Shown: piece by piece, positions 2,985 through 43,410 of the stretch
Layout of the letters: every line of letters starts with the position of its first letter
Position numbering within the stretch: the stretch's first letter is position 1
DNA from: an uncultured Bacteroidales bacterium
Lineage (GTDB): Bacteria > Bacteroidota > Bacteroidia > Bacteroidales > UBA932
Reading direction: 5' to 3'
DNA: 64,000 bases
NCBI GenBank assembly: GCA_945487035.1
Contig: CALYTI010000005.1
Location: forward strand, 41,950 to 105,949
Position numbers and translations under genes: made by a program
The notes under the pieces: model-generated
Told to the model about the DNA's origin: nothing
What the model saw: only the letters and a program-made list of their open reading frames with translations
Database searches by the model: none

Positions 2985-5900
2985 TTAGAAAGTAATGTCG
3001 ATACCGAACATATAGGTCTTCTGCCAAGGATAGTACATCTGGTTGCGCGCGCTGTCGTTGGTGCTGTTCCTCTGGAATGCAGCTTCCGGGTCGAGGTGCT
3101 TTGTGACCTTGGTGAGCGGTGACCAGTAGTGAAGATTCTCGCCTGAGAAATAAACCCTTACCTTCTCGAGAGAAAGAACCTTTGTGATTTCCTTAGGGAT
3201 GGTGTATCCGACAGAGAGATTCTTCAGACGCAGGTAGCGGATGTTCTGCAGATACCTGTCGTTGACCAGCCTGAGCTGACCGCCGGTAGAAGAGTAGGCG
3301 CGTGGCCTTGGAAAGTATGCATCAGGATTGTCCTCGCTCCAGCACATTGTGGTGTAGAAGTCCCTTGGGATGAATGATGCATAGGAGTAGGCGTATGGAC
3401 CCCAGAAAGACATATTCATTCCGGCAGGATACCAGTAGTGGTCACCGGTTCCCTGGAAGAAGACGCTGGCATCAAAGCCCATATAGTCTATTGCGAAGGT
3501 AAATCCGTACTGCAGGCTTGCAAGGCTGTTTCCGAGGATTTCCCTGTCTCCTGGTTTCTCCGGAGTGTTATGTCCGATTCCCAGCTCCTTGTCGCCGTCG
3601 AGGTCAAGATACTTGAGGTCTCCGGCCATCACACCACCGCGCATACGTAAGGTTCCGATGTATGAAAGCTGATCGCAGACATTGGTGTTGTAGTCTATAG
3701 CCTCTTCGTCAGTAGCGAAGAATCCGTCGACCTTGAATCCCCAGATATCACCTATCCTCTGGCCTACATAGTAGTCGCCGAGCAGGTGCTCAGGATTGTT
3801 GTCGTACCTGGTCACATAGGTTGAGTAGTCACTGAGAGTTCCGCGCAGGGAGTAACCGAAACGCTCCCCTGCAAGTTCGAAGGAATCCCTCCAGCTGAGT
3901 GAGAGCTCATAACCCTTGGTTGAAAGGTCGGCTGAGTTCTCCTTCGGTGCGTCGGCTCCGTAGATTGCAGGAATCTTGCTTCCCTTTACAAGCATGTTGA
4001 GGGTGTTGCGGACATACACGTCACCGGTGAACTCGAGCCTGTTTCCGAACAGGGCGATGTCGATACCGAGGTCCAGCTGCTCTGCGGTTTCCCAAGTCAG
4101 ATTAGCGTTTACAGGAGCGGAGAGAGAGGCATATTTGCCGTTGATACTGCTCTCGCCGAAACTATAAGAGTAATGCTCCTTCGTATTGAAGTTGTAGAAG
4201 GACACTGCCTGGAGATAAGCGAAGTCAGCGACTTCCTGGTTGCCGAGGCGTCCGAAGGAAGCCCTGAGCTTGAAGTTGTCGAGAGTTCCCTTGAGATCCT
4301 CGAAGACAGGCTCCTCGCTGATACGCCAACCGGCTGAAGCTGAAGGGAAGAATCCCCAACGATGACCGGGAGCAAAGCGGGAAGAACCGTCATAGCGTCC
4401 GGAAACCTCAAGCAGGTAACGTCCCTTGTAGTCGTAGTTCGCACGTGCGAAGAAACCGAGCAGGGCATTGCTGGTTGCTCCTCCGGAAACGCTTGACACA
4501 ACCTCTCCGTTGGCATCGGTTCCGATGAGATTGAGGTCGTTGAGATAAGGGGTGGTGATATTCTGACCTGAAGCGGAAATGGACTTCCTGTGGTAGGTCT
4601 CGGCGTTCATACCTGCGGTAAGGGTAAAGTGATGGGCGTCAGCAAAGGTGTCCTCGTATGTTGCGAAGACATTGGCCGACTGCCTTACGTAGGTGGCAAC
4701 AGTCTCGGTGAGCTCGTTCAGACCGGCTCCGGTTGAATAGGACTCCAGAGCTGAATCAGGATATCTGCGGTAGGTGATAGGATAGAGCCTTCCGGTGTCT
4801 CTGTTCTGATAGAGTCTATAGGTGTAGTTCCCCACTATCGAGAGCTGCTCTACAGGCTTGATTGTCAGCTGAGTGGTGTTGGAGAAGTCGGTACGGACCT
4901 TGGTGTTCTTGTCTATTCCTTCTCCGAAGATGATCTGACGTCCGTTAGCGATGTTTTTTCCTGCGGCAATCATAGGAGTACCGTAGGTCCAGGTTCCGTC
5001 AGGGTTCTTCAGAGGGAAGCAAGCAAGCGCGTGGCGGGAAGCGTAAGCGAATGAGTCCTCGACATCACCTGCGCCGATCCAGTCGTAGCTGGAAGCGTAG
5101 AAGGAGGTATTGTTGGAAAGCCTTGCATACTTGTTGATCTTGAAATCAATCTTGCTGCGGAGGTTGTACTTCTGGAACACGTCAGGGTTGACCTTCACCA
5201 CACCGGTCTGACGGTCATAACCGCCGGAGATGTAGTACTTCACATCCTTGTTGCCGCCGCTGATGGAGACGGAGTGGGAAGTGATAGGGTGCTGGTCATT
5301 GTAGAGTTCGTGGTACCAGTCGGTGTTGCAGTAGTAAACCCACTGGTTGCGGCCCTTTCGGAAATCCTCGACTATCCAAGGACGAGAAGGATCCTCGGTC
5401 ACATCATTGATACGGGCGAGGAGCTGAATCATATCATCGTCCGTGTAGGCGGTGTAATTGGTGCCGCTGTCAGCATACCAGAACTTGTCCACGGTATAGG
5501 CTGCCCAGTAGCCTCGGGTCTCGTAGTCGGTGGAGGTGGTAGGCTCTTCCCAGCCCCAACGTCCGCTGTAACGGACTGTGGCCTTGCCGTCATCCCTCTT
5601 GGAATCCTTGGTGGTGACAAGCACTACACCGTAGGCACCACGGGCACCGTAAACGGCAGCTGCTGAGGCATCCTTGATAACTGAAATGCTGGCAACATCG
5701 GCAGGGTTGACACGGTTGATATCTCCCGGAACACCGTCGATGAGCACGAGCGGACTTGCCGCGTTGATGGAAGTTGTACCACGGATGTTCAAGGTTCCGG
5801 TGGAACCGGGATTACCCGTTGAGGTAGAGATATTGAAGCCGGCAACGGAACCCTGCAACATGGTTGACAGGTTGTGAGCCACACGGTCTTCAAGGTCTTT

Positions 5901-22668: not shown

Positions 22669-23270
22669 GGTTCCAACACCTTGCTGGCTAATGCCCACTG
22701 GTAATTTCCTGATGTGACAGATCAGGAGCTAAAAGTGCGTGGAAGGCCGTTTTTCATCCTGATGTGACACATCAGGAAAACAGGGATGGGCCACAGTGAC
22801 CACCGGGAAGAGCAACACAGGGGCGGGAAGTGCCTTGTACCAAAACGTTTGGTGACGAATGTGCCCTGCAGGGCCTTCCAGAGGGGGTGGTTTCACCAAA
22901 CGCGGCAAAATTGGCGAGTTTGGTGACGAATGTGCCTTGCAGGCCTCTCTAGGGGGGTACTTTCACCAAACGATTTGGAACAACTGTCATAAGAGCACAA
23001 CAAGGCATTCAGGCAGTTCCCGACGTTACACGTCCGGAGCTAAAAGTGCCTGGGAGGCCTATTTTCTTCCTAACGTGTAACGTCAGGAAAACCGGAAAGT
23101 GCCACTAAAGGGCCTGGAAGGCACATTGGCAATTTCCTGACGTGACAGGTCAGGAGCAAAACTAGCGTGGGAGACCGTTTTTCATCCTAACGTGTAACGT
23201 CAGGAAAACGGGAAGTGTCGTCAGCCGTAGCAAGCACGATTAGGACACACTCGATGAAACACTACCGTCA
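22614..23270. repeat. Composite intergenic repeat copy 1 (recO 3' end, hairpin units A-C, double-hairpin element G)
   Basis: Blocks of this segment recur at 28340, 32919 and 37563 (recO tail; GCCCACTGGTRATTTCCTGA; CCTAACGTGTAACGTCAGGAAAA; AGCAAGCACGATTAGGACAYACTCGATGAAACACTACC). Confidence 0.85.
22840..22978. repeat. ~140-bp double-hairpin element G (arms CGTTTGGTGA/TCACCAAACG)
   Basis: Two tandem hairpins with arms at 22846/22893 and 22919/22963 and outer CCAAAACG...CGATTTGG; GGCC-containing cores. Confidence 0.8.
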
Positions 23271-23300: not shown

Positions 23301-23350
23301 AAAAAGTCAGCCAAAACCACGCAAAAGTGTTGATTTTGGCTGACTTTTTT
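23301..23350. terminator. Perfect hairpin upstream of the ATPase gene
   Basis: AAAAAGTCAGCCAAAA...TTTTGGCTGACTTTTTT; arms recur downstream of the gene at 24862-24903. Confidence 0.6.
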
Positions 23351-23400
23351 GATGCATAAAATATATTAATTATATTTGCAATCAAGCAATTGTGTTTACA

Positions 23401-24849
23401 ATGAGAACAACTGACATTATAGGAAGAAAACCAGAACTTGAGACACTCAAGTATCTGTATGAGTCTCAGAAATCTGAGTTTCTTGCCATCTATGGAAGAC
23501 GCCGAGTCGGCAAGTCATTCCTGATTGAAGAGGCTTTTGAGGGTAGGATATCCTTTACTGCTGTCGGAATCTTCAAGAAAGACACCGACTCTTCCACATA
23601 CAAGAAGACACAGCTGGTGCATTTTCATGAGTGCTTGATCGAATACGGACTCAACCGTGAGGACACTCCTGTTCCTGATTCCTGGAGAGAGGCTTTCGCT
23701 CTTCTGAGGAAACTACTGTCCAGCAAGCGAGCCGGAAAGAAAGTCGTATTCCTTGACGAACTGCCTTGGCTTGCCGGTCCGCAGTCTTCTGAGCTTGTGG
23801 AGGAACTCGGCTGGTTCTGGAATGAGTGGGCAAGAAAGCAGAAGAACATATTTCTGATTGTCTGCGGATCATCCACCAGCTGGATGCTTGACAACGTAAT
23901 CAGGGATTATGGAGGACTCCACGCCCGCCTTACAGAAAAGATACACCTACAGCCGTTCTCTTTGAAGGAGTGCGAGGAATTCTTCTCCAAAAGAGGTTTC
24001 CATATGTCAAGGTATGAGATTGCATTATGCTACATGACCATCGGAGGAATCCCTTATTATATGGACAAGCTCAGGCCGAACAGAACCCTTGCAGAAAACA
24101 TCGACTCCGTATTTTATAACAGGAACGACGTTTCACAGGAGTTCAAGGATGTCTATACAGGTCTGTTCACTTCATCAGATAGATACATCGATATAGTAAA
24201 GGCACTCGGCAAGAAATTCTACGGAATGACACGAGCAGAAATCGAGAGCCATCTCAAGATTAAAGGCGGAGGAACGCTCAGCAAGATGCTTGACAACCTA
24301 ATTGAGTCAGGAATCATCAAGACTTACAAACGCTACGGTGAAGATAGAGTGACTACGGTATATCAGTTGAAGGATTTCTTCTCCCTGTTCTACCTGAGAT
24401 TCATTGAGGCATCATCGAAGTACACTCAGTGGCGCTCACTTCAGAGAACTCCCGCCTTCTTCACCTGGGCAGGAAACAGTTTCGAGCTGCTTGTTGCTGA
24501 ACACATCCCGCAATTGTGCGAGATCCTGCGAATCAAGGATCCAGCAGAATCATACTGCTGGACAGGCTGGACTCCTGATGAAAAGAACGTGCAGATCGAC
24601 CTTCTTATTCCTGCACCGATGGAGAGGACCGACTACCTATGCGAGATTAAGTTCTCGGAGAATACGTACAGTATCTCTGCAGACTACGAGGCCTCTTTGA
24701 GGAACAAGCTGGATGCCTTCATTAATTCGAAGCAGCACAAGAAGACCCATTCGCTTCAGCTTGTCATGGTAACTTCCTTCGGTCTAAGCAAATCAATTCA
24801 TAACGGCTCAGTAAACAGCATCATTTGTCTGGATCAGCTTTTCAACTAA
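23401..24849 (+). CDS. AAA ATPase of the archaeal-type ATPase / DUF234 family
   Basis: Walker A YGRRRVGKSFLIEEA; VVFLDELPWLAG; LIVCGSSTSWM; C-terminal nuclease-like LCEIKFSENTYSI. Confidence 0.85.
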   Translation: MRTTDIIGRKPELETLKYLYESQKSEFLAIYGRRRVGKSFLIEEAFEGRISFTAVGIFKKDTDSSTYKKTQLVHFHECLIEYGLNREDTPVPDSWREAFALLRKLLSSKRAGKKVVFLDELPWLAGPQSSELVEELGWFWNEWARKQKNIFLIVCGSSTSWMLDNVIRDYGGLHARLTEKIHLQPFSLKECEEFFSKRGFHMSRYEIALCYMTIGGIPYYMDKLRPNRTLAENIDSVFYNRNDVSQEFKDVYTGLFTSSDRYIDIVKALGKKFYGMTRAEIESHLKIKGGGTLSKMLDNLIESGIIKTYKRYGEDRVTTVYQLKDFFSLFYLRFIEASSKYTQWRSLQRTPAFFTWAGNSFELLVAEHIPQLCEILRIKDPAESYCWTGWTPDEKNVQIDLLIPAPMERTDYLCEIKFSENTYSISADYEASLRNKLDAFINSKQHKKTHSLQLVMVTSFGLSKSIHNGSVNSIICLDQLFN

Positions 24850-25176
24850 ATCACCTCACACCAAAAGTCAGCCAAAATCCACTTTTTAGCGTGATTTTGG
24901 CTTCTCAACAACTGTTTTACGCTTGGAAGGCACGATTGTTCATAACTTTTTCACTTTTTCTGTATAGATTTTTCGTGCTCGTTCGTTTATTATATATATG
25001 CAAAATGAACGAGTTATGAATAAAGCCCATGTGGTCGCTTGAGGATGCCATGCTCTCTCTGAAGGAACTGTCGAAGCATTCTCGAAATGAGGGAATGCGA
25101 GGAACACGGCCATAAGCACCTGTATGGCGCTTGCAGAAATGCCAACAAAGTCTTAACTTTATGAAAACAACTATTT

Positions 25177-28339: not shown

Positions 28340-28459
28340 TTCCATCACATTGCCGGCTAATGCCCACTGGTGATTTCCTGATGTAACAGGTCCGGAGCAA
28401 AACTAGGGTGGGAGGCCGATTTTCTTCCTAACGTGTAACGTCAGGAAAACAGGAAGTGT
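28340..28459. repeat. Composite intergenic repeat copy 2 (hairpin unit D)
   Basis: TTCCATCACATTGCCGGCTAATGCCCACTGGTGATTTCCTGATGTAACAGGTCCGGAGCAAAACTAGGGTGGGAGGCCGATTTTCTTCCTAACGTGTAACGTCAGGAAAAC matches units at 22.68-23.21 kb; abuts the stop of the ion-channel gene. Confidence 0.85.
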
Positions 28460-33216: not shown

Positions 33217-35730
33217 TTACAGCGCGTTTGAATAGTCATAGCCGACGATACGCGACGCGTAGGACGGCCAGCTGGCCTTATAAGCTTCTTCTGAACCTAA
33301 CGGCACATAAATCGTAACTGGACATTCGGAGAATGCATATTCACCATAAGTGCTTAGCGATATGGCCTTTATATATGTGCTTGTCATGCTGCTGCAACCA
33401 AAGAATGCACCATACATAATCTTTTTAACGCTTTCTGGAATAGTGATACTTGTCAGTTTTGAGCAGTAATAGAATGCAAAGTCATTAATCTCAGTAACGC
33501 TTTCCGGAATGGTTATGCTCGTCAGGCTGCTGCATCTAGAGAATGCACCATTCATAATCTTTTTAACGCTTTCTGGAATAGTGATACTTGTCAGTTTTGA
33601 GCAGTTATAGAATGTATGTTCATTAATCTCAGTAACGCTTTCCGGAATGGTTATGCTTGTCAGGCTGGTGCAATAGTAGAATGCCTCACTTCCAATCGAA
33701 GTTATGCCTTCGTTCATCACAACGGCGGTTAAATTACTACATTCCTTGAAAGCTCTGTTTCCAATAGACGTGATACTATTTGGGAAAGTGATTTCTTTCA
33801 AACTTTCACAAGAGCTAAAATATGAATACGGTATGGTCTTTACTGACGTGAAATACTGGAACTCGTTGAAGGTCTGGAAGGTCTTATTTGACAAGGTCAT
33901 TCTGTACAAGTCGGTGACGGCGGCAGCTTCGGCGTAAGAGAGTTCACCGTCTTTGTCGGTGTCGAAAGCAGTTAGACATAGTTCCTTCATTTCGTCGTCT
34001 TCAAAGATAACGTATTTTGCGAGTTTCCAACAGCCGACGATACGCGACGCGTATTCCGGCCATCCGGCCTTATAAGCTTCTTCTGAACCTAACGGCACAT
34101 AAATCGTAGCTGGACAATTGGCGAATGCATTTGAGCCATAAGTGCTTAGAGATGTGGCCTTAAAATATATGCTTGTCAGGCTGGTGCAATCAGCAAATGC
34201 AGTAAACTCAATCGTAGTAACGTTTTCCGGAATAGTAATGCTTGTCAGGCTTGTGCAATCTTCGAATGCAGATCCCATAATCTGAGAAACGCTTTCCGGA
34301 ATAGTTATGCTTGTCAGGCTTGTGCACTTATAGAATGTATAATTAGTAATCTCAGTAACGCTTTCCGGAATGGTTATGCTCGTCAGGCTGCTGCATTCTG
34401 AGAATGCACCGTAGTCAATCGAAGTAACGCTTTCCGGAATGGTTATGCTTGTCAGGCTGGTGCAATAGTAGAATGCCTCACTTCCAATCGAAGTTATGCC
34501 TTCGTTCATCACAACGGCGGTTAAATTACTACATTCCTTGAAAGCTCTGTTTCCAATAGACGTGATACTATTTGGGAAAGTGATTTCTTTCAAACTTTCA
34601 CAAGAGCTAAAATATGAATACGGTATGGTCTTTACTGACGTGAAATACTGGAACTCGTTGAAGGTCTGGAAGGTCTTATTTGACAAGGTCATTCTGTACA
34701 AGTCGGTGACGGCGGCAGCTTCGGCGTAAGAGAGTTCACCGTCTTTGTCGGTGTCGAAAGCAGTAACACATAGTTCCTTCATTTCGTCGTCTTCAAAGAC
34801 AATGTTCTCTGTTCCGGCGGAGGTAATAGGGACGGTAACAACAGGCATTTTCAGGACTGAAGACCTTTTGATTTCATTTGAAACAGAAGCTTTTATAGGC
34901 ATCACTTTGCCTTCTGTATCAACGACCTTTACGGTAAAGCCGTTGCTGAAGACGGTAGGAGGAACGGAGATGATGAATAGTGTCGGAACGGCAGGGTCCA
35001 ACTGGACACCATCGCCGCAGTCCAGCGTAATGGTCCCGGTAGCCTCTGCGCTCATTGTTATGCTCGGAACTTTCGCTCCGGGATAAGCAGTAATGGATGA
35101 CGAGCCCGCAAGCTTTTCATTATTATTGCCTTTCAGTATTATTCTTTTCACCGCACACTCTCCGCAAAGCTGAAGTTTCAACGCTCCGTTAACGTTCTTG
35201 AACTTCAGGGAGTGATCGGATACCGAATTTGTCACCGCAACCATTGCAAACGATTCCTGCGCGAATGAATTCGCCTGATACTGCTGTGAGGAAGGGAATT
35301 GGAAGCCGGAAATGGTGTAGAATGTTGACTCCACTCCGCCTTCGGAGACGGTCTTACTGCTGCAGCCGAGGCCGTCAGAATACGGATAGACTGCAATATT
35401 TGCCGGTATCTCCATTCCGGAGGAGAATTCTCCGTTGACTTCGCTATTGTCACTTATCAAAGTAAAGATACCGCTGGAAGTTCCGTCGCATTGTTCCTTG
35501 ACCTGGTAGGTGTCAGCGACCGTTGCGCCCTGGAAAATCGCGATTTGGTCTCCTTTCGTCCAGACTATGCTGTTTTCCTCGGTCATCGAAGTCTTTGTTG
35601 GTCCATCGAAGCATTCGAGGCTGGCCACAAATTCTTCGCCCGTGTTTTGCACTGGGTTTTCGAGTATTATTTCTTGCTGGCAGGCAACGGACAATGCGAT
35701 GCCTAACGACAATATGAATATCTTTTTCAT
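33217..35730 (-). CDS. BspA-like leucine-rich-repeat (LRR_5) surface lipoprotein with EF-hand-like segments
   Basis: MKKIFILSLGIALSVACQQE lipobox; repeated CTSLTSITIPESVTSI...; DTDKDGELSYAEA twice. ORF extends to 35853. Confidence 0.88.
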   Translation of the reverse strand: MKKIFILSLGIALSVACQQEIILENPVQNTGEEFVASLECFDGPTKTSMTEENSIVWTKGDQIAIFQGATVADTYQVKEQCDGTSSGIFTLISDNSEVNGEFSSGMEIPANIAVYPYSDGLGCSSKTVSEGGVESTFYTISGFQFPSSQQYQANSFAQESFAMVAVTNSVSDHSLKFKNVNGALKLQLCGECAVKRIILKGNNNEKLAGSSSITAYPGAKVPSITMSAEATGTITLDCGDGVQLDPAVPTLFIISVPPTVFSNGFTVKVVDTEGKVMPIKASVSNEIKRSSVLKMPVVTVPITSAGTENIVFEDDEMKELCVTAFDTDKDGELSYAEAAAVTDLYRMTLSNKTFQTFNEFQYFTSVKTIPYSYFSSCESLKEITFPNSITSIGNRAFKECSNLTAVVMNEGITSIGSEAFYYCTSLTSITIPESVTSIDYGAFSECSSLTSITIPESVTEITNYTFYKCTSLTSITIPESVSQIMGSAFEDCTSLTSITIPENVTTIEFTAFADCTSLTSIYFKATSLSTYGSNAFANCPATIYVPLGSEEAYKAGWPEYASRIVGCWKLAKYVIFEDDEMKELCLTAFDTDKDGELSYAEAAAVTDLYRMTLSNKTFQTFNEFQYFTSVKTIPYSYFSSCESLKEITFPNSITSIGNRAFKECSNLTAVVMNEGITSIGSEAFYYCTSLTSITIPESVTEINEHTFYNCSKLTSITIPESVKKIMNGAFSRCSSLTSITIPESVTEINDFAFYYCSKLTSITIPESVKKIMYGAFFGCSSMTSTYIKAISLSTYGEYAFSECPVTIYVPLGSEEAYKASWPSYASRIVGYDYSNAL
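33631..33972. repeat. Near-identical internal duplication in the BspA-like gene (partner 34423-34764)
   Basis: The ORF track gives the identical 77-aa antisense peptide at 33704 and 34496 (792-bp offset); flanks extend the identity. Confidence 0.9.
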
Positions 35731-36090
35731 TGTTATAAAGGGAATTTTAGATTTGTGATTGTTAGGACCAGCTGCCGTTTTCTTCTTCGACGCGCTCAAG
35801 GGTGCTCGTACTCTGGCAAAGAACATTCTGGCAGTCCAATTCAAGCTCCTCACATTCGGGAGCAGAGTAGTGTAAGGTTTTCATTCGCGTAGGGTGTAAT
35901 TTAGTTATTGTTTACTTTTGCGTCTCGATTACCAACTCTTTCGATACTTTCTATACACCTTTTATCATTATGCAATTATCAAAATGGCGAAAGGTACGAA
36001 AGAGATTCACGCTATGCTAAACGTGCTGGAGCAGACGCTTTCTCATTTTATATTATTGTCAAAGTGAAAACAAACAAATTGGAGAATCCA

Positions 36091-37562: not shown

Positions 37563-37896
37563 TGAAATGAATGTGAACATCCGCTCGCTGCGCGTTCTGC
37601 AGAGTTGTTCGGGTAGGGTTCCATCACATTGCCGGCTAATGCCCACTGGTAATTTCCTGATGTGACAGATCAGGAAAACCGGAAGCGTCTCTGCAATTAA
37701 GTGACATCAGGAACTGCCTAATGTGCCTTTTTTGTGCTCTCAGGGCAGTTGTTCCAAATCGTTTTGGGATTAACCCCTCGTAGAAGGCCCTGAAAGGCAT
37801 GTCCATCCCAAAACGACGACTTTTTGCCTCGTTTTGGGATTCACCCCTTCTGAAAGGCCCTCCAGGGCACACCAATCCCAAAACGATTTGGAACAA
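37563..37896. repeat. Composite intergenic repeat copy 4 (recO 3'-end fragment, unit F, inverted linker and double-hairpin element H)
   Basis: GTGAACATCCGCTCGCTGCGCGTTCTGCAGAGTTGTTCGGGTAGGGTTCCATCACATTGCCGGCTAATGCCCACTGGTAATTTCCTGATGTGACAGATCAGGA matches the recO end and downstream. Confidence 0.9.
37749..37896. repeat. ~148-bp double-hairpin element H (arms CGTTTTGGGAT/ATCCCAAAACG)
   Basis: TTGTTCCAAATCG...CGATTTGGAACAA outer arms (13 bp, perfect) and two inner hairpins; GGCCC cores. Confidence 0.85.
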
Positions 37897-43145: not shown

Positions 43146-43172
43146 AGGGCGGGACCGGGAATTCCCGTGAGC

Positions 43173-43312
43173 AAAATCACCTTCCACGCGACCCACTGCC
43201 AGACTGGCCTACAACCTTGCCCACCGTGGACGGTGCGGGCTTTTTCCCGCACCTTCCACGCAGCATCCCATCACAACACCTTCCGCGGCCTCCCACCGTG
43301 GAAGGTGATTTT
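43173..43312. repeat. ~140-bp double-hairpin element I (arms ACCTTCCACG/CGTGGAAGGT)
   Basis: AAAATCACCTTCCACG (43173-43188)...CGTGGACGGTG (43225-43235), GCGGGCTTTTTCCCGC centre, ACCTTCCACG (43251-43260)...CGTGGAAGGTGATTTT (43297-43312). Confidence 0.82.
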
Positions 43313-43340
43313 GATAACCGGCCGCCATGCGGGGATAAGC

Positions 43341-43410
43341 CGGATTTCAGACAATTTGTTTCCGGCAGGCAGGGATGGGTCGGATTTCAGACAATTTGTT
43401 TCCGGCAGGC
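43341..43410. repeat. 30-bp direct repeat duplicating the MATE gene 3' end
   Basis: CGGATTTCAGACAATTTGTTTCCGGCAGGC at 43341-43370 and 43381-43410. Confidence 0.95.

Follow-up and report, generated by a model that had tools for sequence, protein, structure and literature searches.

Element G, a double hairpin in the 64,000-nucleotide stretch of Bacteroidales DNA analysed here (the window), and two further elements of the same anatomy in the window are, with a probability that we put at roughly 85%, non-autonomous REPIN-type mobile repeats moved by a RAYT (REP-associated Y1/HUH tyrosine transposase). It is very probably a RAYT of the same genome that spreads the repeat. The elements form a family, their ends are precise, no target duplication accompanies them, they are associated with RAYT genes whose catalytic-type residues are conserved, and in most cases the sequences of their arms match those of the elements beside the RAYT of their own genome.

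Anatomy of the elements and their copies in the host genome

G has two hairpins of about 57 nt in direct orientation, separated by a 15-nt linker and placed inside a 21-nt terminal inverted repeat (Table 1). A preliminary description made from the sequence of the window had presented G as a double hairpin and a member of a repeat family. The structure is as described there and multiple copies were found; the true ends lie 5 nt further out on each side (22835 and 22983), since the terminal inverted repeat is TTGTACCAAAACGTTTGGTGA / TCACCAAACGATTTGGAACAA. H shares the layout of G, has a perfect terminal repeat of 23 nt and occupies exactly the interval that had been assigned to it, and the third element is probably the one that was called I. 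The general plan is conserved tag, arm, core, arm', linker, arm, core, arm', tag, so with its four arms one strand can form either two adjacent hairpins or one long hairpin. Scanning the window for the four-arm pattern returned G, H, the third element and one joining of two other palindromes (23016-23206), and 10 shuffled windows gave 0 matches. The DNA folding z-scores relative to shuffled sequence are -4.9 for G, -8.8 for H and -6.8 for the third element.

Table 1. Positions of the elements in the window, of the parts of G, and of additional RAYT-like genes in the host genome (contig:positions)
Feature	Position	Strand	Locus	Remarks
Element G, complete, 149 bp	22835-22983	.		G-type arms CGTTTGGTGA
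Left terminal inverted repeat of G	22835-22855	+		includes outer arm A; 90% complementary to 22963-22983
Hairpin 1 of G	22846-22902	+		arm CGTTTGGTGA, core GTGCCCTGCAGGGCC.., arm TCACCAAACG
Linker of G	22903-22917	+		CGGCAAAATTGGCGA; nearly palindromic; motif type common to whole genus
Hairpin 2 of G	22918-22972	+		direct repeat of hairpin 1, 85% over 40 nt
Right terminal inverted repeat of G	22963-22983	+
Element H, 148 bp	37749-37896	.		H-type arms CGTTTTGGGATT, same type as copies beside RAYT gene
Third element	43165-43320	.		same anatomy, arms ACCTTCCACG; four genome copies, no cognate RAYT found
RAYT-like gene	C6:20162-20998		L210	flanking hairpins GTGCGCAAAA..TTCCTGCGCAC
RAYT-like gene	C14:25009-25785		L211	flanking hairpins of TTTTTTGCTTTTGG type
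RAYT-like gene	C20:3265-4089		L212	flanking CGTACAGGAGAAGGGCCTCTGGTGTAC arrays
RAYT-like gene	C22:33614-34516		L120	flanking hairpin TTTCGTATGGGT..ACCCATACGAAA

The window contains several other repeats. Two 40-bp direct repeats (43322-43401) abut the third element. A second palindromic family (22705-22784, 23016-23095, 23133-23212, 28340-28453 and 37653-37684) has a core, GTGCSTGGAAGGCC, similar to the G/H cores and flanked on either side by palindromes such as TTCCTGACGTGACACGTCAGGAA; no transposase was found for this palindrome family. A 40-bp inverted repeat (88%; 23309-23348 and 24863-24902) brackets an archaeal-type ATPase gene (23392-24849), which looks as if the gene itself were a mobile unit. 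Finally, a 69-bp periodic repeat (33240-34544) lies within a long reverse-strand open reading frame (33217-35853) whose protein has 23-residue repeats.

In the 1.94-Mb host genome (G000) the G/H family comprises about 17 full-length copies (148-150 bp) and about 10 partial or single-hairpin copies, all intergenic; these numbers were obtained by searching with G, H and the pattern of the ends and are lower bounds, and several copies lie at contig ends, so that some are surely missing from the count. A 16-nt end pattern matches the genome 47 times with at most 2 mismatches, compared with 1 match for the reversed control. Copy ends are exact and the flanks mostly unrelated between loci; no target duplication was present at the 19 sites examined (0-2 nt), and no empty site was found for these elements. 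Divergent, tandem and convergent gene pairs alike surround the copies, which are not confined to gene 3' ends.

Two arm types occur in the family, a majority type, CGTTTTGGGATT, and CGTTTGGTGA, which is carried by G, by C4a and by two 79-bp single-hairpin forms (C1 and C8). The latter have both ends intact (L113:5808-5886 and L115:8046-8124) and have likely lost one hairpin between repeated arms, or are single REP-like units. C4a is the first element of a local array of three (C4a, C4b and C4c; L114:629-778, 1999-2148 and 3986-4135), the third of which, C4c, combines an arm of one type with an arm of the other, a hybrid with mismatched outer arms; in copies C10 and C29 the inner arms are broken. 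A truncated G-type element also has beside it a degenerate tandem array of units about 22 nt long (GARNGCCTTGTGCCACTGCNG-like; G000:C50, L008 ~1411-1500). The arms of the third-element type (type I) are nearly equal to those beside a RAYT of another genome, G141, which suggests that the source of type I was lost or that it was acquired horizontally.

RAYT genes and the matching of arms

A Y1-type (Y1/HUH) transposase gene, a RAYT, is present in the same genome at C9:58599-59573. An H-type copy begins 46 bp past its stop codon; a second one is found 1.5 kb upstream, separated from the RAYT gene by queH and a GHMP-kinase gene. A close copy is present on one side only. The sole Pfam match of the protein is PF01797 and its sole NCBIfam match is 'REP-associated tyrosine transposase' (NF047646), both weak and below cut-off, and a sequence profile search of the PDB returned no homologue. 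Among 18 aligned RAYTs of the clade, the HxH motif, the tyrosine of CYxxKN and the WSS motif are invariant, and 57 residues (H77 to Y134) separate HxH from the tyrosine. On their outer sides the two H-type copies have flanks (L116 6870-6898 and 9769-9797) that are reverse complements of each other over about 29 nt, which suggests inversion or conversion between the two copies. Four more RAYT-like genes of the genome (Table 1) each have their own flanking hairpin repeats, and the genome seems to hold five REPtron-like units. The C22 gene was rejected as the transposase of the G/H family; it has a hairpin of its own and just half an H element adjoining.

Homologues of the C9 RAYT were found in 102 of 200 relative genomes, all of one genus. 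The members of its clade are about 45-55% identical and are mostly bracketed by repeats of 143-167 bp that have the same anatomy and different arms. Every one of the 19 clade loci examined has an element in the fetched neighbourhood, as detected by script, by flanking-repeat comparison or by a covariance model (R1), and three of these loci (L152, L158 and L159) are outside the R1 training set. The elements share conserved AAATTC-type tags, four matching arms and a AAAATTGCC-type linker. More distant RAYTs mostly lack elements (none at L161, L163-L170 and L173, weak ones at L171 and L172). The four-arm pattern was present in 26 of 62 RAYT flanks and in 5 of 1240 shuffled flanks.

A nucleotide search of 100 relatives with H gave zero matches beyond its own genome because the arms are too divergent; success came with the structure model alone. 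R1 detected elements in 52 of 160 genomes, usually in multiple copies and often with at least 18 matches (both strands counted), and none of its matches in the 160 genomes fell outside the genus. About a dozen of the 52 genomes had contributed training sequences; positive genomes outside the training set include G017, G022, G027, G033, G059, G121, G133 and G138. Some genomes, for example G059 and G124, have elements and no detected clade RAYT. A genome-wide pattern scan matched four other Bacteroidales bins. At L081 (G103) and L082 (G104) the element flanks are shared with copies in the host genome; these bins may stem from the host species or one very close to it, or hold mis-binned contigs, and both were excluded as independent occurrences. 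A cyanobacterial match (L083), in which the second end is absent, was set aside as a chance match.

The arms look like keys that fit the transposase of their own genome. For 42 dispersed copies the mean arm difference to the elements of the own genome's clade RAYTs is 0.25, compared with 0.50 when genome labels are permuted, and 0 of 10,000 permutations reached the observed value. Where a genome has two clade RAYTs (G141, G106 and G001), two types of arm are present and each also occurs in dispersed copies. Exceptions, dispersed families that are unmatched to a clade RAYT of their own genome, are type I in the host genome, families in G022 and G135 and part of those in G036. Between families the tags differ at 39% of positions (73% expected), the linker at 50%, and the arms and cores at 63-64% (74-75% expected). 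Arm distance does not correlate with RAYT distance (Mantel r = -0.02); stepwise co-evolution of arm and RAYT is thus unsupported, and turnover of the arms appears to be fast and not coupled to that of the RAYT protein.

Could the elements instead be host-domesticated sites (terminators, protein-binding sites or recombination sites) that merely cluster near RAYTs and are spread by recombination and not by transposition? The hybrid in the C4 array and the mirrored flanks at C9 do show recombination acting on the elements. We nevertheless find this very improbable: at many loci the copies share precise ends while their flanks are unrelated, the arms are specific to the RAYT of each genome, and the copies are not restricted to gene 3' ends.

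Covariation and the folded form

The preliminary description took the paired arm changes between G and H to be compensatory and to imply selection on a folded RNA or single-stranded DNA form, and it tied that proposal to the existence of further copies and of statistically supported covariation. Within the G/H family of the host genome, two-sided change is present at just two outer-stem pairs, in 2 of 19 sequences and as one arm dimorphism; the observed covariation score was reached by 16 of 500 shuffles and the observed number of two-sided pairs by 175 of 500. Thus the arms do change pairwise, but within this family not clearly above shuffled sequence, and the inference from G and H alone was too strong; uncompensated or hybrid copies (C4c, C10 and C29, described above) occur as well. 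Across the genus the situation is different. Of 37 pairs compared over 31 elements, 34 show changes on both sides, and 83.7% of cells are paired, compared with 57% in shuffled and 34-45% in slid controls. When RNAalifold was given 27 elements outside model building, its unguided prediction was the long hairpin, and 31 of the 32 pairs had support. Covariation is therefore weak within the genome and overwhelming, indeed decisive, genus-wide, and further copies exist in this and in related genomes.

The two-hairpin pairing scores as well as the long-hairpin pairing, and since all four arms change together they do not discriminate between the two folds. The tags and the linker, however, are paired solely in the long hairpin, which is therefore favoured as at least one of the forms. 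What stands of the original proposal is that a folded single-stranded form matters; its RNA side fares less well. A cis-regulatory or small RNA whose fold is under selection would agree with the strong genus-wide covariation and the stable fold, yet Rfam covariance models gave no match in the window at gathering threshold, and the elements are near-palindromic, so that the model scores both strands. Moreover, copies sit at unrelated loci in every orientation of the neighbouring genes, they are numerous, their arms are genome-specific, and a transposase adjoins them. An RNA role is unlikely, and we regard structured RNA as a very improbable explanation of the elements.

Still less probable is a MITE derived from a conventional DDE insertion sequence with the same terminal repeats. 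Perfect 23-nt terminal repeats, a length of about 150 bp and an intergenic, non-coding nature would all suit such an origin, but it is at odds with the zero target duplication across 19 sites, with the four-fold arms, and with the RAYT near copies at every clade locus examined; moreover, no longer element with TTGTTCCAAATCG ends was found in the surroundings of the fetched copies. Integron attC sites, whose consensus is RYYYAAC/GTTRRRY, were dropped as candidates, as the arms do not fit it.

Proposed mechanism and comparison with known systems

By analogy with TnpAREP biochemistry (PMC8266576), from which we infer the single-stranded DNA substrate and its binding, cleavage and transposition by the RAYT, mobilisation of the repeats by a RAYT might proceed as follows. 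When DNA becomes single-stranded during replication or repair, the element strand would fold; the cognate RAYT would bind the folded strand, reading both the arm sequence and the conserved AAATTC/AAATCG tag at its foot; its tyrosine would nick the hairpin strand; and the RAYT would excise or copy the hairpin and re-insert it between genes without target duplication. The weak PF01797 and NF047646 scores, the negative PDB profile search, the close copy on just one side of the C9 RAYT, the failure to find an empty site, the lack of correlation between arm and RAYT divergence, the unmatched families and the elements in genomes with no detected clade RAYT are points against RAYT mobilisation. More speculatively, the clade might be a RAYT class of its own that belongs to none of the TnpAREP subclasses described so far. 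In this genus-wide set of transposase/hairpin pairs the tags, the linker and the anatomy would stay fixed, and the four arms would act as exchangeable specificity keys with a faster turnover than the protein, possibly preventing cross-mobilisation by co-resident RAYTs.

It is an open question in the field by what means TnpAREP proteins recognise their repeats when the GTAG signal is missing. In this genus there are well over a dozen RAYT/hairpin pairs that keep one anatomy and differ in their arms, a natural library that includes genomes with two RAYTs and two arm types, so that the recognition code is directly testable. In addition, the covariance model makes it possible to annotate a class of repeats that is common in the genomes of uncultured Bacteroidales and has so far gone unannotated; this class may explain frequent assembly breaks at such places.

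REPIN/REPtron systems with a RAYT (TnpAREP) are described in E. coli, Pseudomonas and Stenotrophomonas (PMC3116915, PMC6006769, PMC8266576). The elements resemble them as multi-copy intergenic hairpin pairs that flank a gene for a single-strand-type HUH/Y1 transposase, with one repeat type per transposase and several types per genome. The two hairpin units can form one long hairpin, the neighbouring gene is of the TnpAREP HUH/Y1 type with family scores below the curated cut-off, and a unit of about 57 nt is at the long end of the 21-65 nt range of REPs (PMC6006769). They differ from standard REPs in lacking the GT[AG]G foot, in place of which there is AAATCG or an AAATTC-like sequence plus the AAAATTGCC-type linker, and in being longer (hairpin about 57 nt, loop region about 34 nt, whole element about 148-167 bp); the RAYTs, mostly 305-341 aa, differ from REPtron RAYTs in falling below family cut-offs.

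Two other kinds of repeat are comparable in part. TIRtrons, according to the portion of PMC3733652 consulted, are RAYT-like (TIRYT) genes flanked by long, partly self-complementary terminal repeats that also form dispersed families. Their inverted repeats are unrelated to REPs and come from other species, and that portion reports neither the four-arm anatomy nor genus-wide turnover of arms. BrickBuilt and other Porphyromonas MITEs are likewise small, dispersed inverted-repeat elements of Bacteroidales; BrickBuilt is minisatellite-based and is set apart from the present elements by its description in the part of PMC4596501 consulted. In the literature searched, which covered few subscription journals, we found no precedent for the four-arm anatomy, the genus-wide arm turnover or the lock-and-key evidence.

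The closest known relatives are the 'atypical secondary structures' of Bacteroidetes TnpAREP, beside which our elements are set by description, as the main text of PMC6006769 gives no detail of them. These structures were found by hand flanking RAYTs of subclass 2.6 (Bertels group 5) and have copies in the genome (PMC6006769). The likeness lies in the Bacteroidetes host, the lack of a GT[AG]G tag, and a RAYT flanked by unusual structures that are copied elsewhere in the genome. The motifs of subclass 2.6 are NH[LIV]H, WQ and YIH[QN]NP, whereas the clade studied here mostly has [NT]HxHF and CYxxKN[PA], with no conserved WQ between HxH and Y, and the median HuH-Y spacing of about 82 residues (PMC6006769) compares with 57 here. 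Since the clade departs from the 2.6 signature in both motifs and spacing, it may be a sister subclass. The preliminary description recognised no named repeat family in these elements, which holds for the exact sequence; the RAYT-associated, REPIN/REPtron-like kind is itself known, and the elements are a new variant of it.
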